Origin: Rhodoferax sp.
GTDB taxonomy: Bacteria > Pseudomonadota > Gammaproteobacteria > Burkholderiales > Burkholderiaceae_C
Direction of reading: 5' to 3'
NCBI GenBank assembly: GCA_013791765.1
Contig: VMTC01000004.1
Span: 1 to 42,574 of the forward strand
DNA length: 42,574 bases
In this document: in pieces, positions 16,163 to 27,790 of the stretch
How positions within the stretch are numbered: position 1 is the first letter of the stretch
How the letters are laid out: each line of letters opens with the position of its first letter
Translations under genes and position numbers: made by a program
The notes under the pieces: model-generated
Told to the model about the DNA's origin: nothing
The model's database searches: none
Seen by the model: only the letters and a program-made list of their open reading frames with translations

Positions 16163-16690
16163 TCAACGGCTGCCCATGGCCCCCAGCAGCGCGTCATTTA
16201 ACACGCTCTGCGTATTGATATCCTTGAGCAGGCTCAGGCTGTTTACGCCGGTGTTGATGACGGTGAGGGTCTGAATGTTCTGGTTGTTCAGACTGTTCTG
16301 GATCACGGTGCTGGAGGCCAGTTGCGCGCTGATGATCGCCTCGATGTTGTTGCCCGTGCCTATTTGAATCAGACCCGACTCGGAAAGGGCGGCGCTGGCC
16401 AATGTGGCCTGCTCGCTGCTGATTCGTGTGACGTCGGGCAGGTTGAAGCTGGTTTGGGTCACCAGGTCGCCATTGACCATGACGCTTCGGATGATGCCAA
16501 AAGACACGGTTAGCCCAGAATCGGTGTCAAAACCACCGCGCGTGTCGCTCAGTTGCTCGTCGCTAACGGCTGTCCACTCCTCAGGGCGAAACCGGTCTTC
16601 GCTGGCGGCGGCGGGGCCAACCCGCAAGCAGGTGTTCCCGGCCATCAGCAACAGGCATAGGCTGAGCAGTTTGCCTGGCATATTTTTCAT
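16163..16690 (-). CDS. Small secreted protein of the amyloid locus (minor subunit candidate 2)
   Basis: 175 residues with a signal peptide (MKNMPGKLLSLCLLLMAGNT, cleavage near AAAS). Then come EQLSDTRGGFD and a C-terminal half rich in Asn, Gln, Ile, Val and Ser, including VIQNSLNNQNIQTLTVIN. RGG and VIQNS-x2-N-x2-IQ also occur in the same order in the 145-residue protein two genes upstream, so the two look related. I chose ATG 16690, 13 bp after the C39 peptidase stop, because it begins the signal peptide; the longer frame starts inside the peptidase gene. It is last in the operon. A minor fibre component or nucleator, as FapB/FapE in Pseudomonas, is inferred. Confidence 0.75.
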   Translation of the reverse strand: MKNMPGKLLSLCLLLMAGNTCLRVGPAAASEDRFRPEEWTAVSDEQLSDTRGGFDTDSGLTVSFGIIRSVMVNGDLVTQTSFNLPDVTRISSEQATLASAALSESGLIQIGTGNNIEAIISAQLASSTVIQNSLNNQNIQTLTVINTGVNSLSLLKDINTQSVLNDALLGAMGSR

Positions 16691-16703
16691 GGTGCCTGCT
16701 GTG

Positions 16704-17396
16704 CTAATGATCGCCCGGACCAAATTTATTCAAGGTCACGTTGCTCAGGCTGTCCAGGCTAAGCCCGGCTGCCAACGGCGCCCTGGGCGCAACCAGCCAG
16801 TCCTGTGGCGCGTTAAATTTGGCCTGGGTCTGTTTGTTGTGAATCACGAACAGCAGTTTGTTGACCCAGCTTGCTTCAAAATTGGCCAGAGATACCGCCC
16901 GTGTGCCGGTGGAGGGGTCCCCCATCAAAATTCGTCCATCGCGCATGCCCTTGATCACTACAAAATGGTGATAGCCCTTGTCGGCAATCAACACGATGGC
17001 GGGCAAGCCCGACTCCACCAATTTGGACAAAGGCAGCGCAAACCCATCAGCCTGAAACTCATGGGCTTTTAAATATGATTTCATGTCGAGCAGTGAAAAA
17101 CCCTCGCGGCGAATCTTCTCCTGGTCGCCGCGGACAAACATTTCTTCAAACACCATTTGCTCCGTCACCGGATAGTTGTAATGGTGCGTGAGCAAGGTGG
17201 CTAGCGCGGCTGAGCCACAGCTGAAGTCGTACTGCTGGCGCAGCGTGGCCTTGAAGCGCGCTTCCTTCAAACTGGTGACCTGCACTGCGTAATGGCCCCC
17301 GATGCCCGACAAGGCCAGTGTACCCGCTTGCGTGCTTGCAGAAGTTGCTGCGCTAGCCACCGCTGCCGCCACAAGCCCGTAGTAAAGAGCCTTCAT
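16704..17396 (-). CDS. Secreted C39-family cysteine peptidase, FapD-like
   Basis: About 230 residues. An N-terminal signal segment is followed by a C39 peptidase domain with the full catalytic set: QQYDFSCGSAALATLL (Cys), KGYHHFVVIKG (His) and MGDPSTG (Asp). There is no ABC transporter part, unlike bacteriocin exporters. Stand-alone C39 proteins beside a repeat-rich secreted protein and a coiled-coil barrel are the hallmark of FapD in functional-amyloid operons. ATG 17396 gives a clean signal peptide five bases after the previous stop; GTG 17405, overlapping that stop, is the alternative. Confidence 0.85.
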   Translation of the reverse strand: MKALYYGLVAAAVASAATSASTQAGTLALSGIGGHYAVQVTSLKEARFKATLRQQYDFSCGSAALATLLTHHYNYPVTEQMVFEEMFVRGDQEKIRREGFSLLDMKSYLKAHEFQADGFALPLSKLVESGLPAIVLIADKGYHHFVVIKGMRDGRILMGDPSTGTRAVSLANFEASWVNKLLFVIHNKQTQAKFNAPQDWLVAPRAPLAAGLSLDSLSNVTLNKFGPGDH

Positions 17397-17401
17397 GACC
17401 G

Positions 17402-17839
17402 TCACTGAAATTGCACGTTGATGATGGTGGCGCTCTGGATCAGCACGTTCGATCCAGAATTCTGGATCACCATCGGCAAGCCGCTCATGTTGGCAAAGGC
17501 GCCATCGGCAATCGCATTGCTGCCCGATATGACATGGCTGGCCGAATTGTTGGCAACCGTGGCGCTCAACTGCATGTCGTTCTTGACAAGATCAGCACCA
17601 CCCCGGAACCCGTCCAACTGGCCCAGCGCAACGGGCTCTCCCCAACCGGCTACCAGTGGTGCTTCAGCCGATGTCGACGCTTGCACTGCGGGCAGGGAAG
17701 CTGCTTCTTCAGGTGCAACGGCCACACTGACGATGACCCCGATTGATGCATCCAAAGTACCTGCATTGACGATCAGCCAGGCGGATGAACATAAGGCAAG
17801 GGCGCATGCCGACCTGAGCTTGGAAAGTAATAATTTCAT
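17402..17839 (-). CDS. Small secreted protein of the amyloid locus (minor subunit candidate 1)
   Basis: 145 residues with a signal peptide (MKLLLSKLRSACALALCSSA, cleavage near VNAG). Later come QLDGFRGGADL and a C-terminal Ser/Asn/Ile-rich stretch ending in VIQNSGSNVLIQSATIINV. RGG and VIQNS...IQ are shared with the protein at 16163-16690. GGAGG lies five bases before ATG 17839, which fixes the start. It lies 70 bp after the repeat-protein gene and five bases before the peptidase start. Likely a minor fibre subunit or nucleator; this is inferred from place, export and composition. Confidence 0.75.
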   Translation of the reverse strand: MKLLLSKLRSACALALCSSAWLIVNAGTLDASIGVIVSVAVAPEEAASLPAVQASTSAEAPLVAGWGEPVALGQLDGFRGGADLVKNDMQLSATVANNSASHVISGSNAIADGAFANMSGLPMVIQNSGSNVLIQSATIINVQFQ

Positions 17840-17909
17840 CTCGTCCTCCATGTTCGACAAGAACGACCGCTGGCTCAAATCAGCTTGACCCAGCGGCCGA
17901 TCGTGTCGC

Positions 17910-19748
17910 TTACTTGCCGACAGCCAGGTTGGCTTGCACGTTCACGCTTTGTTGCACCATCGCAGCCATGCCGCTGTTTTGGGACGCAACCATGACGCCT
18001 GCGGCAGATTGACCGACGCTGCCCATGGCGTTGGACATGTTGAATTCGCCAGCGCTGACATTGATGCCGCCAGCGCCACCGGCGCCACCATTGCCGACAC
18101 CACCGGTACCGGCACCGTCAGCCAACGCTGGAGTCGGTTTAGGCTCATCGCCACCGGTGCCCGCGCCCGCGCCGCCGGTGCCGCCGTAGCCGGTGCCGCC
18201 ATTGGCGTTACCGGAGTTCGACGCTTGATTCCCGATGTAAGAGATGGCGTTGCCGCTGACCGTGCCGCTCAGCGAGCTAGACACCGAGGCCGTCGAGGTG
18301 TTGAAGGAGTTGGAGAAGTTGGATGTAGCGGTTGAGCCGTTATTGGCCGCCGTGGCTCCTTCTGCTTCCGCTTTGGCATCGCCATTGTTGTTGGCGTTGT
18401 TAGCCTGACTGCTGGTGTTGTTCGAATCCCGGGTATCAGTCCTGGTGTCAGTCTTATTGAGGTTCTTGGTGTTGTCAGTACTCGTGGTAGTCGTGTTGTT
18501 CGAGTCCTTGGTCTCAGTCTTGTTCTCAGTCTTGGTTATGGTCTTGGAGTTGTCGCTGCTGTCAGAACTGTTGTTGCTGTCTGCCGTGTTCACTGAGTTA
18601 TTCGTGTTGTCAGTCTTATTGGTGTTTTTGGTGTTGTCAGTGGTGGTGGTGTTGTTCGAGTCTTTGGTTTCAGTTCTAGTGTCAGTCCTGGTGTCAGTCT
18701 TATTGAGGTTCTTGGTGTTGTCAGTGCTCGTGGTGGTTGTGTTGTTCGAGTCCTTGGTCTCAGCTTTATTTTCAGTCTTGTTTTCAGTCTCAGTGATGGT
18801 CTTGGAGTTGTAGCTGTCCTTGGCACTGACTGAGCTATCCGCATTGCCGCTGTCCTTGTTGCTGACAGAGTTATCAGTGTTTGTGACAGTTTTGGTATTG
18901 CCGCTGTCCTTATTGCTGATGGAATTGTCAGTGTTCATCGTCGTCTTGGTGTCAGTCCTGGTGTCGGTCTTGGTGTTGGTATTGCCACTGTCCTTGGTGC
19001 TGACGGAGTTGTCAGTATTTGTGGTGGTCTTGGTGTCGGTCTTAGTATTGCCACTGTCCGCAGTACTAACGGAGTTATCCGTGTGGGTCATTGTCTTGGT
19101 GTCGGTCTTGGTATTGGTATTGCCACTGTCCTTATTGCTGACGGAGTTATCCGTGTTGTCGACGGTTCTGGTCGTGGTATTGCCACTGTCCTTATTGCTG
19201 ACGGAGTTGTCAGTATTTGTGGTGGTCTTGGTGTCGGTCTTGGTATTGCCGCTGTCCGCAGTACTAACGGAGTTATCCGTGTGGGTCATTGTCTTGGTAT
19301 CGGTCTTGGTATTGCCGCTGTCCTTGGTGCTGACAGAGTTGTCAGTATTTGTAGTGGTCGTGGTGTCGGTCCTGGTGTCCGTCTTGGTATTGCCACTGTC
19401 CGCAGTACTAACGGAGTTATCCGTGTGGGTCATTGTCTTGGTGTCAGTCTTGGTATTGCCACTGTCCGTGGTATTGACGGAGCTATCGGTGTTGCTCTGG
19501 TTTGCGGTCGAATACTCATTAGCAACAGCGCCGGAAATCTTGCTCTGCTCTGACATTGCCGTTGCCGATTGCGTGCCGGTGGACGCACTGGTGCTTCCTG
19601 CGCCTTCGGCTGCTGCCCCCGCGTCGGCAGGTGCTGGGGCGCTGGCGCCGGTTGCGCTTACTGTGTTGTTAATGATCGGATTCGCGAATGATGGGCCGGC
19701 GATGCCAAATGCAATAGCGATAGCGGAAGCCAATAATGTCTTTTTCAT
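17910..19748 (-). CDS. Large secreted Thr/Asp/Asn/Ser repeat protein, candidate main amyloid fibre subunit (FapC-like role)
   Basis: 612 residues. A signal peptide (1-22, cleaved after SFA) precedes an Ala/Ser linker to about 85. Repeats fill 86-447. Eleven class-1 units follow NTDNSVS-x-KDSGNT-KTDTKT and vary from about 12 to 29 residues. From about 314 come class-2 units with TKDSNNTTTT-STDNTKNLNK. A Gly-rich zone (514-561) leads to a C-terminal block of about 50 residues containing NAMGSVGQSAAGVMVASQN and VQQSVNVQANL, an alternation of N, Q and small residues like curlin and FapC repeats. There is no cysteine and very few aromatics. AAGGA precedes the ATG and a sigma-54 promoter lies 75 bp upstream. 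It is first in a four-gene operon. Amyloid formation is inferred; a plain surface adhesin is the alternative. Confidence 0.8.
   Translation of the reverse strand: MKKTLLASAIAIAFGIAGPSFANPIINNTVSATGASAPAPADAGAAAEGAGSTSASTGTQSATAMSEQSKISGAVANEYSTANQSNTDSSVNTTDSGNTKTDTKTMTHTDNSVSTADSGNTKTDTRTDTTTTTNTDNSVSTKDSGNTKTDTKTMTHTDNSVSTADSGNTKTDTKTTTNTDNSVSNKDSGNTTTRTVDNTDNSVSNKDSGNTNTKTDTKTMTHTDNSVSTADSGNTKTDTKTTTNTDNSVSTKDSGNTNTKTDTRTDTKTTMNTDNSISNKDSGNTKTVTNTDNSVSNKDSGNADSSVSAKDSYNSKTITETENKTENKAETKDSNNTTTTSTDNTKNLNKTDTRTDTRTETKDSNNTTTTDNTKNTNKTDNTNNSVNTADSNNSSDSSDNSKTITKTENKTETKDSNNTTTTSTDNTKNLNKTDTRTDTRDSNNTSSQANNANNNGDAKAEAEGATAANNGSTATSNFSNSFNTSTASVSSSLSGTVSGNAISYIGNQASNSGNANGGTGYGGTGGAGAGTGGDEPKPTPALADGAGTGGVGNGGAGGAGGINVSAGEFNMSNAMGSVGQSAAGVMVASQNSGMAAMVQQSVNVQANLAVGK
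18408..19493 (-). repeat. Coding tandem repeats within the fibre gene
   Basis: About 1.1 kb of degenerate tandem repeats at the DNA level. A longer block of about 45 codons (containing TKTDTKTMTHTDNSVSTADS) occurs three times nearly unchanged, seen as near-identical segments around 19060, 19260 and 19400. Such long repeats invite recombination and slippage, so repeat number probably differs between strains. The high order also creates long antisense frames that are not genes. Confidence 0.9.
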
Positions 19749-20094
19749 GATGTGTCCTTAAAAAAAATTTGCAGTTCAGGAGTGACTTGGCTCGGCGTCA
19801 GGCGCCAATCCGATAACGACAGTGCAACTTTGATGCCAGCCTAGGTTGCAAACGCTCCAGACCCGTGATCTGCCCATGAAAAATGAATGTTGCGCACTGA
19901 AGAATGAAAGACGACCTGAGGTTTTGGGTCAGTCATGGCCGTTTGAACAGCCCCATTTGTCCACAATCCGTTACAGTTCCAGTGAGTCGAGGCGTTGCCC
20001 GGTTTGCGTAATCGCAAGTTCGCCGGGATTTCTCTTTTGAATTCAACAACCCGGGCCTATGCCCCGCCAGCGCGGCTTAGGTGGTCCAGGTGTC
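19749..20094. other. Regulatory intergenic region upstream of the fibre gene
   Basis: 346 bp between the fibre gene and the 3' end of the regulator gene. It holds the sigma-54 promoter at 19823-19838 and ample upstream room for activator sites. At 19998-20028 a hairpin (TTGCG-TAAT-CGCAA inside CCCGG/CCGGG) precedes a short T-rich stretch. I saw no supported gene here. Confidence 0.5.
19823..19838 (-). promoter_or_regulatory. Sigma-54 (-24/-12) promoter of the amyloid operon
   Basis: On the minus strand the sequence is TGGCATCAAAGTTGCA. The -24 GG and -12 GC are exactly 12 bases apart and both flanks match the consensus TGGCAC-N5-TTGCA, with one mismatch (T for C). Transcription would start near 19811, about 60 bases before the fibre-gene ATG. 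The next gene upstream encodes a sigma-54 activator, which supports a functional site. Confidence 0.8.
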
Positions 20095-21444
20095 TCACTG
20101 TTGATACAGGGGTTGCTTAATGCCGTGTTTTTCCATCAGCCGGTACAGCGTCATGCGCGACACCCCCAGATCCCGTGCGGCGCGGCTGATGTTGTTGCCA
20201 CTGCTGAGCAGGCAGACGTAAATGGCATCGCGTTCGGCGCGAACGCGCGCGTCTACCAGCGCCTCGCCGTTGACCAGGGTGGTTGGCATGTGCAGATCAA
20301 GGTCTTCGGGCGTGATCAGGCGCCCTTCGGACATCACCATGGCGCGCCGGATGCGGTTGATCAGTTCACGCACGTTGCCCGGCCAGTCGTGGGCGTTCAT
20401 GGCCAGCATGGCGCGGTTGCTAAAGCCGGTAAGGCGCGGGCCTTTGTCTCGCGCGAAGACTTTGAAAAAATGACTGGTCAGCAGTGCCAGGTCCTCTTTG
20501 CGTTCCCGCAAGGCCGGCACCGTGAGCGGGAGCACGTTGAGCCGGTAGAGCAGGTCCTCGCGGAAATGCCCGGCCTTCACAGCCTCTTCCAGGCGCATGT
20601 GTGAGGCGGCAATCACCCGCACATCAACCTCAATGCTGCGCGAGGAGCCCACCCGGGTGATGGTGCCTTCCTGCAAAAAGCGCAGCAGGTTGGTCTGCAG
20701 TTCAAGTGGCAGGTCACCGATTTCATCGAGAAAAAGTGTGCCACCGGCAGCAGATTCGATCAAGCCGAGCTTCTCCTTGGCGGCACCGGTGAACGCACCC
20801 CGTTCATAGCCGAACAGTTCTGACTGGATCAGGCTGGCGGGCATGGCGCCGCAATTGACCGCAATGAAGGGGCCGTTGGCGCGGGTGGAAAAGTTGTGAA
20901 TTGCATGAGCCGTCAGTTCCTTGCCGCTGCCACTCTCGCCCCAGATCAGCACCGGGGCGTTGGCTTGTGCCACTTTGCCGGTCTGCTTGCGCAGGTGCTG
21001 GATCGCCGCGCTTTGTCCCACCAGTTCCATGTCACTTTTGCCATGGCCTGCCATCGTGGGCGGGGCGTGCAATTCCGCGTAGCCAAAGGCGTGTCCCAAG
21101 GTGTGGTTGAGCCGGGCAGGGTCAATCGGCCAACTGTGAAAGTCAAACAGGTGCTGCACGATCAGCGCCCGATAGCTTGGCCGCTTGACCATCTCGGCCG
21201 GGAAGACCCCAACCCATTGGGTGTTTTGATGCGCTTCCAACAGCGCGTCCACGCCAACCACGTCAGCGTCGCTGGCGTTGTTGAGCAACAATAGGCCAAC
21301 CGGGTACGCGTGCTGGGCCAAGGCTTTGCGGGCAGCCGCCAGGTCATGGACGCCGCAGATAGCCCAGCACGACTGCAACTCGGCTGGTGTGCTCAGGAGT
21401 TGCTGGTCTCCCAGCGTGACGCTCAACAAGGCTCGTAACAACAT
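20095..21444 (-). CDS. Sigma-54-dependent activator, VpsR-like
   Basis: 449 residues. The N-terminal domain (about 1-130) resembles the atypical receiver of VpsR-type biofilm regulators. The AAA+ domain has Walker A GESGSGKE (about 169-176), the sigma-54 contact GAFTGA (about 216-221) and Walker B GGTLFLDEIGDL. The C-terminal Fis-type helix-turn-helix contains NISRAARDLGVSRMTLYRLM. GAGGAA lies seven bases before ATG 21444, so I prefer it over the longer frame to 21543. It stands between the fibre operon and the barrel gene and is the obvious candidate to fire the promoter at 19823-19838. VpsR responds to cyclic di-GMP; whether this protein does is unknown. Confidence 0.88.
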   Translation of the reverse strand: MLLRALLSVTLGDQQLLSTPAELQSCWAICGVHDLAAARKALAQHAYPVGLLLLNNASDADVVGVDALLEAHQNTQWVGVFPAEMVKRPSYRALIVQHLFDFHSWPIDPARLNHTLGHAFGYAELHAPPTMAGHGKSDMELVGQSAAIQHLRKQTGKVAQANAPVLIWGESGSGKELTAHAIHNFSTRANGPFIAVNCGAMPASLIQSELFGYERGAFTGAAKEKLGLIESAAGGTLFLDEIGDLPLELQTNLLRFLQEGTITRVGSSRSIEVDVRVIAASHMRLEEAVKAGHFREDLLYRLNVLPLTVPALRERKEDLALLTSHFFKVFARDKGPRLTGFSNRAMLAMNAHDWPGNVRELINRIRRAMVMSEGRLITPEDLDLHMPTTLVNGEALVDARVRAERDAIYVCLLSSGNNISRAARDLGVSRMTLYRLMEKHGIKQPLYQQ

Positions 21445-21706
21445 CTGCAATTCCTCTGCTTGCTCTCTTCTTTTCACCACGCAAGGCCCGCACTTCGGCT
21501 CAAGAGGCGAGTGCTGAAATGGATGGAGCCCAAGCGTAAGCAAGCGCTGTCTGGTGTAGCTTGATATTTGTCACGGTCACCACCCACTTCACGGCAATCC
21601 GCTCTACTTGATTAATCGCAACTACGCCCGTTCGAGCCTCTTCAACACTTGCCGTTCGTGTTTGCTCTGGGTGTCTTGGTTATTTGCTCGATCGGAGAAG
21701 ACAGTT

Positions 21707-23080
21707 ATGGCCCATCTGAAATTACCCGCCATCAGCGCGGTGACTTACGCTGTAGCGTTGCTGCTGGGTGGCACGGCGCAGGCGCAATCCCAGGCGGACA
21801 CTGGGCCCCAGTTGCATGCGATGCAGGCGCGACTGGAATCTTTGAGTCAGGACTTGGCTGAGCAAAAGAGGCTGCTGCAGAACCTGGAGGCATTTCGCCA
21901 GCAGTATTTTGAGCAGCGCGGCCTGCTGCTGTCTCTGCAGCGCCAGGTGGCGCAGCAACAGCTTGCGCTCGACGAGCTTCGGGGCGCCGCCAGTTGGGAT
22001 GTATTGGCCAGCCAGCGCGGCGCGGGCACCCAGGGTCAGCCGGGCCAGCCAGAACTGATGGCCCAGGCTGCAGTGAAAACCAAAGAAGAAGTGCCGGTGG
22101 GGCGACAGCCTGACACCCAGGGGCGCCCGCCGGAAGTGGCGCCTTTGTTCGAGCAACCGGGTGTGCTCACGCCCAAGGGCCGCTATGTGCTTGAACCGTC
22201 GCTGCAATATGGCTACTCGTCGAGTAATCGGGTTGCCCTGGTGGGCTACACCGTCATTCCGGCGCTGCTGATTGGTTTGATTGATGTGCGTGAAGTCAAG
22301 CGCAATACCGTGACGGCTGCCTTGTCTGCGCGCTATGGCCTGACGAACCGGTTTGAGCTGGAAGTGCGTGCGCCCTATGTCTACCGCTCAGACTCGACGG
22401 TGAGCCGAGAAAACATTGCCGGTGCGACCGAGAACGTTTTCTCGACCAGCGGCATGGGCATGGGAGACTTTGAGGTGGGCGCACGCTACCAATTGAACGA
22501 CGGTGGCATTGACAGGCCCTTCTATATTGGCACCTTGCGTCTGAAAAGCCGCACCGGCACCGATCCATTTGAGGTCGTCACCGATTGCGCCCAGCGCTGT
22601 ATTGGCACCAACACAACCGGCACCGGTTTGCCCCTGGACCTGCCGACCGGCTCTGGTTTTTACTCTATGCAAGCGGGCCTGACCCTGCTTTACCCATCCG
22701 ACCCGGCGGTATTTTTTGGCAGTGTGACCTACCTGCACAATTTTGCGCGTGACAACGTCAGTCGCACCGTGCTCAACGGTGAGAAAGAATTTTTGGGGAC
22801 GATCTCACCGGGCGCCGTTCTGGGCTTCAACTTTGGCATGGGCTTGGCGCTGAACGAAAAATCGTCTTTCAGCCTCGGTTATGACCACAGCTCCGTGGGC
22901 CGGACCAAAACCAACGGCCAGGTGGTGCCAGGCTCTGTGCGCACGCAACTGGGCACCTTGCTGCTGGGTTATTCCTACCGCTTCAGCAAAAACACATCCT
23001 TGAGCGTGTCGGTGGGTGCGGGTCTCACGACCGACACGCCGGACGTGTCTCTGACGGTGCGGCTGCCGATGACGTTCTAA
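21707..23080 (+). CDS. FapF-like outer-membrane amyloid transporter
   Basis: 457 residues. A signal peptide (1-27, AQA) is followed by a coiled coil at about 32-92 rich in Leu, Gln and Glu, a Pro/Gln linker to about 150, then a beta-barrel to the end (typical stretches: KGRYVLEPSLQYGYSSS, GLIDVREVKRNT, ARYGLTNRFELEVRAPYVYR, FSLGYDHSSVG). The last residue is Phe, as usual for outer-membrane barrels. This layout is that of FapF, a trimeric pore that exports amyloid subunits. ATG 21707 has GGAGAAG about eight bases upstream; the longer frame to 21608 is not supported. It is transcribed away from the fibre operon, with no clear sigma-54 site found upstream. Confidence 0.82.
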   Translation: MAHLKLPAISAVTYAVALLLGGTAQAQSQADTGPQLHAMQARLESLSQDLAEQKRLLQNLEAFRQQYFEQRGLLLSLQRQVAQQQLALDELRGAASWDVLASQRGAGTQGQPGQPELMAQAAVKTKEEVPVGRQPDTQGRPPEVAPLFEQPGVLTPKGRYVLEPSLQYGYSSSNRVALVGYTVIPALLIGLIDVREVKRNTVTAALSARYGLTNRFELEVRAPYVYRSDSTVSRENIAGATENVFSTSGMGMGDFEVGARYQLNDGGIDRPFYIGTLRLKSRTGTDPFEVVTDCAQRCIGTNTTGTGLPLDLPTGSGFYSMQAGLTLLYPSDPAVFFGSVTYLHNFARDNVSRTVLNGEKEFLGTISPGAVLGFNFGMGLALNEKSSFSLGYDHSSVGRTKTNGQVVPGSVRTQLGTLLLGYSYRFSKNTSLSVSVGAGLTTDTPDVSLTVRLPMTF

Positions 23081-25122: not shown

Positions 25123-27129
25123 TCAGCGCCCGCGCAGAAACAAGGCGTCGAGCTCGCTGAGCTTGAACTGGCGCCAGGTCGGGCGGCCATGGTTGCACTG
25201 GTCGCTGCGCTCGGTGGCTTCCATCTGGCGCAACAGCGCGTTCATTTCCTCTACCGTCAGGCGCCGGTTGGCGCGCACCGCACCATGGCAGGCCATGCTG
25301 GAGAGCAAGTCGTTTTGCGCGCGCTCGATCACGCTGCTGGCATCAACCTGGGCTAGCTCGGCCAGCACGCCGCGCGCCAGTTCCACCGCATCCCCGAGTG
25401 CCAGCGTCGTGGGCACGGCGCGCACCGCCAGCGTTCGGGTGGAAAACGCGGTGATCTCCAGCCCCAGGGCTTGCAGCGTGTCGGCGTGCGCCTCCGCGGT
25501 GGCGACCTCTTCTGGCGTTGCGGCAAAGGTGGCGGGGATCAGCAGCGGCTGGCTCCTCAAGCCGGGGCGGGTGTCCGGTGATCCGGTTGACGCGGCCGCG
25601 CCGGTGGTGCTGTCGCGCTCGGCCCATTGCGTTTTCAGCCGCTCATAAAGAATGCGCTCGTGGGCCGCGTGCATGTCGACAATGATCAGCCCCTGCGCGT
25701 TCTCGGCCAAGATGTAGATGCCTTGCAGTTGCGCCAGCGCGCGGCCCAGCGGCCAGTCGCCGCCCGGCAAGAGGGCAGCCCCTGGCGCGCCTGAGGCTGT
25801 GGCGAACGCAGCAGTCACAGGCGCAGCCACGGCTGGCTGGCTGGACGCTCTGGCTGGCTCGGCCTCGCCCGATTGCCACAGCGCCCCCAGGTCGCTCACG
25901 CGGTGACCGGGCTGTGAGTCAAAATGTATAGCTGCTTGGGCATAAGATACGGGGGCTAGAGGCTGATTTCTTATATAAAAAGGCGAAGTTGAAGGCGCAG
26001 GGTCAGCGCCTGCATTGGCAGCGACTTCGGTCTGCCCGGCGCTCGCGCCGCTGGCGGCCACAATGCCAACCCGGGGCGCTGCCAGTGCATCTTCAATCGC
26101 GTGGCGTACCGCCTGATGCACTTCGCGGCTGTCGCGAAAACGTACTTCGATCTTGGTGGGGTGCACGTTGACGTCGACGCGGGTCGGGTCGATTTCGATA
26201 TACAACGCAAACACCGGCTGGCGCTGGCCGTGCAGCACATCGTCATAGGCGGCTCTAGCCGCGTGGGCCAGCACCTTGTCGCGCACAAAGCGGCCATTGA
26301 CGTAAGCGAACTGCTGGTCTGCGCGGGACCGTGCCGCGTCGGGAATGCCAGCGCGGCCCCAGACCCGGATGCGTGGCGCGGTGTCACTGCGCCCCGGGCT
26401 GGCGCTGGTTTCAAAATCAACCCAGACCGAGCGCGTCACAAAGTCAGCGCCCAGCACATCGGCCAGGCGCTGCTCCAGTGCCGCCAACGCCGGGCCGCGG
26501 CTCTCGCAGCGGCGCCATTGCTCCACCAGTTTGCCCTCATGCCAAATGGCAAAACCCACATCGGGGCGCGCCAGGGCGTGGCGGCGCACGGCCTCGACGC
26601 AGTGCGCCAGCTCGGTGGCGTCGGTTTTGAGGAATTTGCGCCGCGCCGGCGTGCTGAAGAACAGCTCCTTGACCTCCACCGTGGTGCCGGTGCTGCGCGC
26701 CACCGGCTGCAACTCGCCGCTGCCGCCATCCAGGCAATAAGCATTGCTTTGGCCGCTAGCCCTTGAAAGTATTGCGCAGTCGGCTATTGAATTAATAGCA
26801 GCCAGCGCCTCACCTCTGAAACCCATGGTGGCCACCGACTCCAGCTCAGACAGGCTGCCGATCTTGCTGGTGGCATGGCGCCTGAAGGCCAACGGCAGTT
26901 CTTCGCGCAAGATGCCGGCGCCGTCGTCTTCCACCGCGATCAAACGCACGCCACCGGCCAAGAGCCGCACCGTGACCTGCGTGGCGCCCGCATCGAGGGC
27001 GTTGTCCACGAGCTCGCGCACCACCGAGGCCGGTCGCTCCACCACCTCGCCGGCGGCAATCTGGCTGATCAGCGCGTCGGGCAGTTCTCGTATCGGGCGG
27101 CGGGGGGAGGGGGGCAGGGCGGCATTCAT
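25123..27129 (-). CDS. mutL: DNA mismatch repair protein MutL (endonuclease type)
   Basis: 668 residues. The GHKL ATPase domain has QIAAGEVVERPASVVRELVD, DDGAGI and TMGFRGEALAAI. The C-terminal domain keeps the metal-dependent nickase motifs: DMHAAHERILYE (for DQHA-x2-E-x4-E), ACHGAVRAN and CNHGRP, so this MutL probably cuts DNA itself, as in bacteria without MutH. Two copies of the ATAGC-N20-GGGCTA repeat lie in the gene: copy B in the ATPase core (residues about 114-128, sense) and copy A in the interdomain linker (about 387-401, antisense). The ATG overlaps the PIN-toxin stop as ATGA, so translation is coupled. Confidence 0.96.
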   Translation of the reverse strand: MNAALPPSPRRPIRELPDALISQIAAGEVVERPASVVRELVDNALDAGATQVTVRLLAGGVRLIAVEDDGAGILREELPLAFRRHATSKIGSLSELESVATMGFRGEALAAINSIADCAILSRASGQSNAYCLDGGSGELQPVARSTGTTVEVKELFFSTPARRKFLKTDATELAHCVEAVRRHALARPDVGFAIWHEGKLVEQWRRCESRGPALAALEQRLADVLGADFVTRSVWVDFETSASPGRSDTAPRIRVWGRAGIPDAARSRADQQFAYVNGRFVRDKVLAHAARAAYDDVLHGQRQPVFALYIEIDPTRVDVNVHPTKIEVRFRDSREVHQAVRHAIEDALAAPRVGIVAASGASAGQTEVAANAGADPAPSTSPFYIRNQPLAPVSYAQAAIHFDSQPGHRVSDLGALWQSGEAEPARASSQPAVAAPVTAAFATASGAPGAALLPGGDWPLGRALAQLQGIYILAENAQGLIIVDMHAAHERILYERLKTQWAERDSTTGAAASTGSPDTRPGLRSQPLLIPATFAATPEEVATAEAHADTLQALGLEITAFSTRTLAVRAVPTTLALGDAVELARGVLAELAQVDASSVIERAQNDLLSSMACHGAVRANRRLTVEEMNALLRQMEATERSDQCNHGRPTWRQFKLSELDALFLRGR
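25928..25969 (+). repeat. ATAGC-N20-GGGCTA element, copy A (in mutL linker)
   Basis: ATAGC at 25928-25932 and GGGCTA at 25953-25958, followed by GAGGCTGATTT. It is antisense to mutL and stays open, reading NQPLAPVSYAQAAIHF in the variable interdomain linker. Confidence 0.8.
26748..26790 (-). repeat. ATAGC-N20-GGGCTA element, copy B (in mutL ATPase domain)
   Basis: On the minus strand AATTCAATAGC, a 20-base spacer and GGGCTAGCGGCCAAA. It is read in the mutL sense and encodes NSIADCAILSRASGQ. Copy C in amiC has the same flanks, spacing and reading phase. Confidence 0.8.
27028..27129 (-). repeat. Direct repeat, left copy: 5' end of intact mutL
   Basis: The first ~34 codons of mutL. About 90% identical to 27904-28004, with a one-base length difference in a G run. 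The two copies bracket the toxin-antitoxin genes. Similarity stops at the mutL start codon. Confidence 0.9.
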
Positions 27130-27536
27130 GGAAGAGTTTCAAACGGATTGAGAAGCAGCACTTTGAAGGCCGCAAAATCACGCGTGTTGCGGGTTACGAC
27201 CGTGAGTTGATGCACCAGCGCAGTAGCAGCAATCATCGCATCTTCAAACAGCGCGTCTGACTGGTGATGCATCAGACGCGCCCACACCCGAAAGGTGGGT
27301 GCATCCATCGGCAAAATGTTGTGGGTCCCGGCCAGTCGGTCAGCCCACTGTGCAATCTCTAAGGCTTTGACCGGGTCTTGATCTTTTGTGATTTCTATGC
27401 CGCGCTGAATTTCACCCAAGGTGACGGCAGAAACAAAAAGATCGGACTCAGGCACCGCGTTTAGCCAAGCCAGCACCCCGCCATGGGGCCTGGCTTTGCG
27501 CAGCTCAGAGACGATGTTGGTGTCAAGCAAAAACAT
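27126..27536 (-). CDS. PIN-domain ribonuclease toxin (VapC/FitB-like)
   Basis: 136 residues. PIN-domain acidic residues are in place: LLDTNIVSELRK (Asp near residue 5), a Glu in AVTLGEIQRGIE and Asp in FEDAMIAATAL, with TRNTRDF near the C terminus. Such toxins cut RNA and are held by a partner antitoxin, here the 84-residue protein just upstream with a one-base TGATG overlap. The stop overlaps the mutL start (ATGA). A TTG at 27539 could also serve as start. Pairing with a Phd/YefM-like antitoxin is seen in FitB-type PIN systems. Confidence 0.92.
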   Translation of the reverse strand: MFLLDTNIVSELRKARPHGGVLAWLNAVPESDLFVSAVTLGEIQRGIEITKDQDPVKALEIAQWADRLAGTHNILPMDAPTFRVWARLMHHQSDALFEDAMIAATALVHQLTVVTRNTRDFAAFKVLLLNPFETLP

Positions 27537-27790
27537 CAAAAATGCTCAGGAGCGCGTCGCTTTCCCTGGCCCCGCGGCAAGAGGATGAGTTCACCTTGTG
27601 TTGATGTATCGAGCAGCACTTGTTTGAGCGAGGGCTGACGGTTGGCCTGCAGCTGGCGCCATTGCGCCACCGGCACCAAAACAGCAGTCTCTTGTCCGCG
27701 CTTGGTAACGAGTTGCGGGCCGCTGGTGAGGCAGGCTTGCAGAAATTCGCTGAATCGTGCTTTGGCGTCCTGAACTGGCCATGTGCTCAT
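27536..27790 (-). CDS. Phd/YefM-type antitoxin
   Basis: 84 residues. The N-terminal half has the Phd/YefM DNA-binding pattern (WPVQDAKARFSEFLQACL, PQLVTKRGQETAVLVP); the C-terminal half (LKQVLLDTSTQGELILLPRG) should bind the toxin. AGGAG lies five bases before ATG 27790. Two ACTAGT palindromes upstream look like its own operator, so autoregulation is likely. Confidence 0.92.
   Translation of the reverse strand: MSTWPVQDAKARFSEFLQACLTSGPQLVTKRGQETAVLVPVAQWRQLQANRQPSLKQVLLDTSTQGELILLPRGQGKRRAPEHF

Follow-up and report, generated by a model that had tools for sequence, protein, structure and literature searches.

A probable Fap-type secretion locus of Rhodoferax sp. with a different main surface protein and a candidate protease motif

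A locus at positions 16163 to 23080 of Rhodoferax sp. contig VMTC01000004.1 (GCA_013791765.1; positions 1-42,574, the whole 42,574-nucleotide stretch analyzed here and called the window) raises the question of how far a fibre secretion system can depart from the Fap amyloid machinery of Pseudomonas and still belong to it. All the parts that an earlier sequence-only reading had named were found in place when the sequence was checked directly. A minus-strand operon (19748-16163) has the order C-B-D-E, with R and F beside it. C (19748-17910, minus) encodes a 612-residue secreted repeat protein, proposed to be the bulk surface or fibre protein. B (17839-17402, minus) encodes a secreted protein of 145 residues from an ATG preceded by a GGAGGA stretch, the listed TTG at 17878 being less likely, and D (17405-16704, minus) a secreted C39 cysteine peptidase. 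E (16690-16163, minus) encodes a secreted protein of 175 residues, the counterpart of FapE, for which ATG is again preferred to the listed TTG. R (21444-20095, minus) encodes a 449-residue, BrfA-like sigma-54 enhancer-binding protein with a VpsR-type N-terminal domain, and F (21707-23080, plus) a 457-residue predicted outer-membrane barrel with a periplasmic coiled coil. Assignment of the coiled coil and of the signal peptides was by eye. A PADLOC run on the locus returned nothing informative, and a scan for sigma-70 promoters and terminators gave matches not above those in shuffled sequence.

D had been read as a stand-alone C39 peptidase with an intact triad, and the residues are indeed present in FSCG (Cys63), HHFVV (His147) and GDP (Asp163). 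It matched Pfam C39 (E value of 3.2e-21) and NCBIfam FapD (3.3e-41, 141 bits against a cut-off of 330). F, which ends in Phe as had been read and has PTG at residue 313, matched FapF of PDB 5o67 over residues 142-456 (E value of 2.3e-31) and NCBIfam FapF (2.3e-48, 165 bits against a cut-off of 700). Although both proteins scored far under the NCBI cut-offs, these matches identify F as a FapF homologue and D as a FapD homologue at the sequence level, in agreement with what had been proposed.

Profiles grown from the window proteins recovered F in 71/71 fetched loci, C in 53/71, D in 51/71, E in 48/71, B in 45/71 and R in 37/71; several of these loci are too short for the full set, and five (L067-L071) are of another D+F type. 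Since members were recovered across the fetched loci, their association is not a matter of chance. The gene set was seen again in Burkholderiales, Lysobacteraceae and Methylomonas, the genera with the lineage including Rhodoferax, Polaromonas, Massilia, Cupriavidus, Pseudoxanthomonas, Lysobacter and Methylomonas. Gene order was recurrent among the relatives, with D-E-F in many. Profiles built from 11 canonical fap loci alone recovered 80 D and 100 F proteins elsewhere among the loci, all types included, and their reversed-sequence control gave a best F match of 0.12 and none for D; a version grown on a set including the window lineage was discarded as evidence. In trees of selected rows (63 F and 60 D, from quick searches), canonical Fap formed a clade of its own for both proteins (SH-aLRT 99), with the window outside it. 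The F tree was rooted on the D+F loci L122-L129, provisionally labeled Fil-like, and the branch separating these from Fap plus the window lineage had an SH-aLRT of 100. The sequence-only reading had tied its proposal to the FapF and FapD clades, a tie that holds for the wider family, within which F and D fall, and not for the canonical clades.

One explanation is that the locus is canonical Fap in a divergent host, with FapC decayed past recognition and FapA lost. The homologues of FapD, FapE and FapF, the frequent D-E-F order and the BrfA-type activator all fit, and both loss of FapA and separation of fapF are known variants (PMC3792158), so that the split layout, taken earlier as a difference from fap, does not set the locus apart. 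We nevertheless find this explanation improbable. The canonical F and D proteins keep to their own clades, one genome (G229) carries a canonical fap locus and a window-type locus about 88 kb apart, another (G283) carries a canonical set together with an intermediate form, and beyond the canonical loci the canonical FapA profile had 0 matches and the FapC profile matched no protein. Still further from our reading, F might be an uptake channel for hydrophobic substrates, of the COG4313 or phenol-degradation type, with unrelated neighbors. F has a weak Pfam Phenol_MetA_deg match (0.0016, below cut-off), and passages of PMC6173800 liken FapF itself to COG4313 channels, but F matches FapF far better and a secreted gene set recurs alongside it, which leaves this explanation with hardly any credibility.

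C matched no Pfam or NCBIfam family at E ≤ 1, and a Pfam search at that threshold found no family, curlin repeat and Csg included, for B, C or E. Residues 84-450 of C (18399..19499, minus) form the repeat region, composed of 30% T, 17% N, 14% S and 13% D, with 6% hydrophobic residues. It contains nine TDNSVS-like units spaced 12-79 residues apart and nine [KA]DSGN units, and TRF reported periods of 12 to 138 bp in its DNA; the repeats are genuine but irregular. Relatives of C are T/D/N/S-rich in some cases and Gly/Ala-rich in others, the T+D+N+S share of the richest 80 residues ranging from 0.39 to 0.94 (0.80 in the window), and 2/12 canonical FapC (L106 and L107) have T/D/N/S-rich stretches too. 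The composition, which had been singled out as distinctive, was therefore rejected as a hallmark; judged by its sequence variation the region is a spacer, probably disordered. The observation that these repeats are unlike those of FapC was borne out: the Fap repeat was sought in C and not found, C does not match FapC, and the FapC profile is confined to canonical loci. The conserved part of C is its last 49 residues (564-612; 17913..18059, minus), with the pattern AGxFNMSN...QNSG...VQQSVNVQANL.

In B, a leader ending in RGG is followed by 64 residues with one QNSGxNVLIQ module. Profile-profile comparison gave 97% for B with E, 91-94% for B with the C terminus of C and 57% for B with FapB, while E compared directly with the C terminus of C gave 0.1-0.3%, no match; co-assembly of C, B and E through a shared module hence hinges on B as the link. 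E aligned with canonical FapE in hhalign (95%) over 35 columns at the leader, the remainder being unaligned. NCBIfam FapB matched 1/30 B proteins, at 0.031, and the canonical FapB profile placed two B proteins below an E value of 0.01. The best match of the Fap repeat in B had an E value of 0.033, compared with 0.058 for reversed sequence, and a profile probability of 30%, too weak to be accepted as proof. AlphaFold models of B and E were poor (pTM of 0.25 and 0.44) and gave no fold identity; Foldseek with the E model found nothing at E ≤ 0.001, and a Pfam search of E proteins was uninformative.

R matched Pfam Sigma54_activat (7e-70), VpsR (1.7e-11) and HTH_8 (1.2e-8) as well as VpsR of PDB 7v2b (1.2e-63). 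A sigma-54 (-24/-12) site, TGGCATCAAAGTTGCA (19823..19838, minus), lies 74 bp upstream of the start codon of C, and the window has no other exact match; tolerating one mismatch gave 7 matches, with 6.6 expected. Among the relatives, a site with at most one mismatch occurred 61-82 bp before C in 34/36 rows with R and 1/26 without, where "without" means none on the fetched stretch and the rows exclude the window, L115, L118 and the canonical loci. After removal by hand of duplicate genomes (L056/L134, L059/L135, L027/L060/L136, L063/L137, L064/L138, L065/L139, L047/L108 and L036/L120, the last with only the end of C present and hence no real upstream stretch), the counts were 27/29 and 1/24. The two misses include L011, for which the script chose an implausible start and an exact site is listed separately. 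Exact sites were found upstream of F in 0/82 stretches, E in 0/57, R in 0/43, B in 0/59 and D in 1/71; with one mismatch allowed, a sigma-54-like site preceded B in 9/59. The dedicated activator had also been counted as a difference from fap. It was rejected as a feature that makes the locus odd, since 8/11 canonical stretches have a sigma-54 activator, directly beside fapF in 6, and in P. fluorescens the neighboring brfA has been studied as a regulator of fap (PMC9207406). The eight R proteins were 44-55% identical to window R (P0005) over 308-419 residues, at 303-360 BLAST bits; the best paralogue of R in its own genome scored 268 bits, a value from a different program. Parts of PMC13101488 report BrfA as a c-di-GMP sensor and regulator of fapA.

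PMC5557850 and PMC6173800 describe the target of FapD as unclear or still to be determined. The former also reports that an active-site mutant of FapD blocked FapC secretion, that the FapE N terminus was absent from mass spectra, and that a C39 peptidase cuts at GG/GA. A 2025 review, in an excerpt, states that FapD is thought to process the FapE N terminus and the periplasmic region of FapF (PMC12822426), and according to a docking study (PMC10638192) it is FapC that FapD modifies. In the window lineage, a pattern fixed after inspection of the sequences, L-x3-R-G-[G/A/T], was common to B (44/45), E (45/48) and some F linkers (28/62). The RGG of the B leader (17597..17605, minus), the proposed FapD-type site, has an equivalent somewhere in 54/59 B proteins, and in the low-confidence B model the sole helix (32-38) is predicted to stop just before it. 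The RGG of the E leader (16532..16540, minus), with RGG somewhere in 58/61 E proteins, aligns with RG[RK][YF] of canonical FapE, where an RG-type motif was present in 12/12. In F, the linker that joins the coiled coil to the barrel holds LDELRGA (21968..21988, plus) and LASQRGA (22004..22024, plus), a second copy of the B/E-type motif. The linker count, from 62 of 65 linkers (three were too short), compares with 0.88 expected from residue shuffling, which ignores relatedness; the motif is missing from 34/62, and an initial stricter pattern gave 14/65.

A matrix from 12 canonical FapE leaders placed its best site at the RGG in 35/45 E and 33/45 B proteins, compared with 2/168 among C, D, R and F. 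Only 7/45 E and 0/45 B scored above the highest-scoring reversed ORF, and random ORFs were outranked by ordinary D and F proteins as well (AUC of 0.80-0.83). A lineage-trained matrix found six sites in canonical loci above the best reversed score (10.7): four belonged to FapE (of 12), and a FapF and an R protein contributed one each. It failed on L122-L133, where a single site exceeded the reversed best, and that in an ORF of doubtful membership, and a universal leader across the FapD and FapF types is therefore a by-eye impression. We regard L-x3-R-G-[G/A/T] as a candidate FapD cut site, of which the lineage, as far as its sequences tell, keeps a double-glycine form shared by B, E and some of the F linkers.

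Sequence comparison establishes, in our view, that F, D and E are homologous to their Fap counterparts, that the gene set recurs, that the sigma-54 site accompanies R and that the motif is shared, and we consider it fairly likely that the locus represents a second lineage of Fap-type fibre secretion. R would turn on the C-B-D-E operon via sigma-54, as the comparative evidence suggests, probably in response to c-di-GMP by analogy with BrfA. C, B, E, D and F would cross to the periplasm by Sec, where D may cut B, E and, in some relatives, the F linker at L-x3-R-G-[G/A]; this would remove leaders and unlock export. By homology, F would be an outer-membrane pore with a coiled coil in the periplasm. 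Through this pore C could exit, as could B and E in their short mature forms, and the three would assemble jointly: E might initiate or anchor the structure, B might act as a short seed-like subunit, and C might supply the bulk, its T/D/N/S spacer forming a hydrophilic brush. Formation of amyloid or of another fibre is our inference. More tentatively, and with rather less confidence, the locus may define a separate surface-fibre class. Its periplasmic C39 peptidase would then recognize L-x3-R-G-[G/A] both in two subunits exported by Sec and in the pore linker, coupling maturation to pore opening, and its bulk subunit would have one terminal assembly module and a fast-changing hydrophilic brush, not stacked amyloid repeats.

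Two parts of this scheme have serious competitors. FapF-type export could serve a non-amyloid coat or adhesin, with C a mucin-like disordered brush and B and E short anchors, and no amyloid fibre would then be made. The hydrophobic-poor repeat region, the missing Fap repeat, the switching composition of the relatives of C and the lack of a detectable module common to E and the C terminus of C would all suit a coat; but B matches both E and that C terminus, as for co-assembling subunits, and canonical FapC can itself be T/D/N/S-rich, and we hold a coat to be somewhat unlikely. The RGG, likewise, might serve B and E in structure or targeting and be left uncut by D. Canonical FapE has RG[RK], with RGG in 1/12, RGG also occurs in 3/10 FapA and 3/12 FapC, and cutting in the lineage is a prediction from sequence. 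L...RG[GAT] is, however, present in B, E and some F linkers yet not in C, D or the barrel (0/61 barrels), and it sits where canonical FapE is conserved, so that an uncut RGG also seems the less probable case.

On our preferred reading, the locus is a divergent cousin of the Pseudomonas amyloid machinery whose main fibre protein differs and whose candidate protease signal can be read from the sequence, and the motif in B, E and some F linkers names residues for testing the target of FapD. Across the genera of the lineage, the data suggest that secretion and regulation can persist through a replacement of the fibre subunits. Reportedly, 25 genera were added to Fap in 2018, and we do not claim that Rhodoferax, Polaromonas, Massilia, Cupriavidus and the others are new to Fap-type systems. 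With Pseudomonas fapABCDEF the locus shares the FapF-type barrel, the FapD-type C39 peptidase, a nearby sigma-54 activator and a FapE-type protein with a leader motif. It differs in that no FapA was found, C stands in place of FapC and lacks its roughly three 39-residue repeats, no more than a single weak Fap-like module is present in B, RGG replaces RG[RK] of FapE, and F lies outside the C-B-D-E operon. Like BrfA of Pseudomonas fluorescens, R is a sigma-54 activator that adjoins fibre secretion genes and would act on the fibre operon, the fetched canonical R genes being identified as brfA by position only. The FilB/FilC "putative pilus system" of NCBIfam also combines a C39 peptidase with a FapF-like barrel, and was matched at 1.9e-37 for FilB (129 bits against a cut-off of 475) and 2.5e-16 for FilC (60 bits against 630), the latter far weaker than the FapF match. 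The double-glycine leaders of peptides handled by bacteriocin C39 exporters have a helix followed by a GG-type site for the C39 peptidase, an arrangement that the candidate site here resembles, whereas in the present locus peptidase and substrates are apparently Sec-exported and periplasmic, and an Arg precedes the GG.

The locus that the sequence-only reading had proposed, comprising a repeat protein, two small secreted proteins, a C39 peptidase, an activator, and a barrel protein, is real and lies where it had been placed. On the minus strand, the repeat protein C (19748-17910) is followed after 70 bp by the small protein B (17839-17402), which overlaps by 4 bp the peptidase D (17405-16704, GTG start), and the second small protein, E (16690-16163), begins 13 bp behind D. 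Upstream of C, that strand also encodes the activator R (21444-20095), and the barrel protein F (21707-23080, plus strand) is divergent from R. By eye, C, B, D, E, and F have signal-peptide-like starts. D retains the C39 triad (Cys63, His147, and Asp163), and F is built from an N-terminal part that resembles a coiled coil by eye, then a linker and a barrel, and its last residue is Phe. A PIN-domain-like protein, VapC-like by eye and without a PADLOC match, is encoded at 27126-27539 (minus strand).

The solved FapF structures matched F residues 142 to 456 (E value of 2.3e-31), the NCBIfam FapF model covered F nearly end to end (2.3e-48, with a score well below NCBI's cut-off), and FapD matched D (3.3e-41, likewise well below the cut-off), upholding the earlier assignment of the barrel as FapF-type and the peptidase as FapD-type. 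Profiles built from only the 11 fetched canonical (Pseudomonas-type) loci were searched against the remaining loci of all types, where those for D and F recovered 80 D and 100 F proteins and those for FapA and FapC had zero matches. The FapE profile recovered 3 E (best 2.9e-5) and 19 B proteins (best 7.6e-5), and the FapB profile recovered 3 B proteins (best 2.9e-4). In profile-profile comparisons, E matched FapE at 95%, via the leader and the SFGI stretch behind it, and B matched E at 97%, the C-terminal end of C at 91-94%, and FapB at 57%; the C terminus of C matched both E and FapC at <1%. As far as homology tells, the window system would work like Fap.

Residues 84 to 450 of C consist largely of Thr (30%), Asn (17%), Ser (14%), and Asp (13%), with 6% hydrophobic residues, and among its relatives the repeat region ranges from T/D/N/S-rich through to Gly/Ala-rich; T/D/N/S-rich stretches also occur in 2 of 12 canonical FapC proteins (L106 and L107). 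Across 28 aligned sequences, conservation is strong in the last 49 residues. We suggest that the repeats may form a disordered spacer or brush and that the B-related C-terminal module may be the assembly part.

Aligning 30 B proteins and 28 E proteins revealed a conserved L-x3-R-G-G motif, a candidate FapD cut site, behind the signal peptide and a variable stretch. RGG was present in 58/61 E and 54/59 B proteins and, among canonical proteins, in 1/12 FapE, 3/10 FapA, and 3/12 FapC. All 12 canonical FapE sequences carry a comparable RG motif (HG in one of them) in the aligned position, and its pattern was found elsewhere in 1/11 FapF, 1/12 FapB, and 1/12 FapC. With a matrix derived from these 12 FapE proteins, the best site was the RGG in 35/45 E, 33/45 B, and 2/168 C, D, R, and F proteins; the best reversed ORF was exceeded by only 7 E and no B (45 each). 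The broader L-x3-R-G-[GAT] was found in 45/48 E, 44/45 B, and 1/36 R proteins and in none of 61 barrels, 46 D, or 53 C. In AlphaFold models of B and E, which are poor overall (pTM of 0.25 and 0.44), a helix terminates at the RGG arginine or immediately ahead of it; C39 leaders likewise have a helix followed by a GG-type site. Beside another D+F pair (L130:9656-13787, G067), small secreted proteins in a row carry, by eye, a leader-like DE[ESD][LM]xxV[SRH][GA]QDG behind the signal peptide and are possibly a further FapD-type substrate family.

A similar motif was also seen in the F linkers, in 14/65 with a strict pattern and in 28/62 with the broader L-x3-R-G-[GAT], defined after the F linkers had been inspected, the latter against 0.88 after residue shuffling with kinship left in. 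A canonical FapF (L109:7585-9000, G284) has a linker with the FapE-like leader motif LAPDDLVTMRGRY and shares its operon with a FapE carrying PIADEELGSIRGKF. Rouse et al. (2017, PMC5557850) reported that FapC secretion needs the active-site Cys of FapD and that mass spectra were without the FapE N terminus, and they weighed GG/GA motifs in FapE and close to the barrel of FapF. New here is a residue-level motif that E and B share with some of the F linkers, with the double glycine intact in this lineage.

R has a sigma-54 ATPase domain, a Fis-type HTH, and a VpsR-type N-terminal domain. An exact match to TGGCAYN5TTGCW occurs once in the window, 74 bp upstream of C. Since one-mismatch sites across the window are at chance level (7 versus 6.6 expected), weight was placed on conservation. 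Where R was on the fetched stretch, 34/36 rows had a site, exact in 16 and otherwise with one mismatch, at 61-82 bp ahead of C, versus 1/26 rows where R was absent; these rows include genomes fetched twice, and counting by hand gave 27/29 and 1/24. For genes other than C, exact sites occurred in 1/312 upstream stretches. The dedicated activator had been taken as a difference from Fap, a view that does not hold: R is present in 8/11 canonical stretches (directly beside fapF in 6), and in Pseudomonas fluorescens PF07 fap expression requires the neighboring gene brfA, with RpoN (PMC9207406, PMC13101488), so a sigma-54 activator is common to this lineage and canonical Fap. Since BrfA is reported to be a c-di-GMP sensor (PMC9207406, PMC13101488), it is fair to infer by analogy that c-di-GMP may control the window locus. 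One stretch (L111:4973-8122, G283) has a pair of adjacent sigma-54 activator genes beside F.

The related-locus search found 54 loci, from Rhodoferax, Polaromonas, Variovorax, Massilia, Noviherbaspirillum, Cupriavidus, Pseudoxanthomonas, Lysobacter, Methylomonas, and others. In a 71-locus set that includes several short loci and five of another D+F type, F was present in 71, C in 53, D in 51, E in 48, B in 45, and R in 37. The genes form a single row, C-B-D-E-F, in Pseudoxanthomonas, Lysobacter, and Cupriavidus, and many Comamonadaceae have a divergent F adjoining R. F was matched in 17/200 genomes of the window's family, 5 weakly and 12 strongly (9e-119 or better, including the window's own genome). 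In L118:2488-7870 (G335), a C-B-D-E set in near-identical tandem duplicate precedes F and R; its E matches both window E (1e-17) and a FapE profile grown on mixed loci (8e-21), and it is a possible bridging form.

None of the papers listed in searches of a literature library appears to deal with this lineage; fapD-fapF pairs have been reported in five further phyla (PMC6173800). The interest of the lineage lies in a testable cutting signal and an exchanged fiber subunit. In one genome (G229), this lineage and a canonical fap locus lie ~88 kb apart, and G283 carries an intermediate form as well as a canonical set; a canonical fap locus of G283 (L110:2736-11999) has a second FapB-C-D-E copy in tandem. 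Trees were quick searches rooted on a group of our choosing, with long branches flagged. In that of F (63 rows), a canonical clade (SH-aLRT 99) stood against this lineage plus the intermediates (SH-aLRT 95), and in that of D (60 rows) the canonical clade again had an SH-aLRT of 99 and 30/31 rows of this lineage grouped (SH-aLRT 98). By the features tested, the window system is a sister variant outside the canonical Fap clade.
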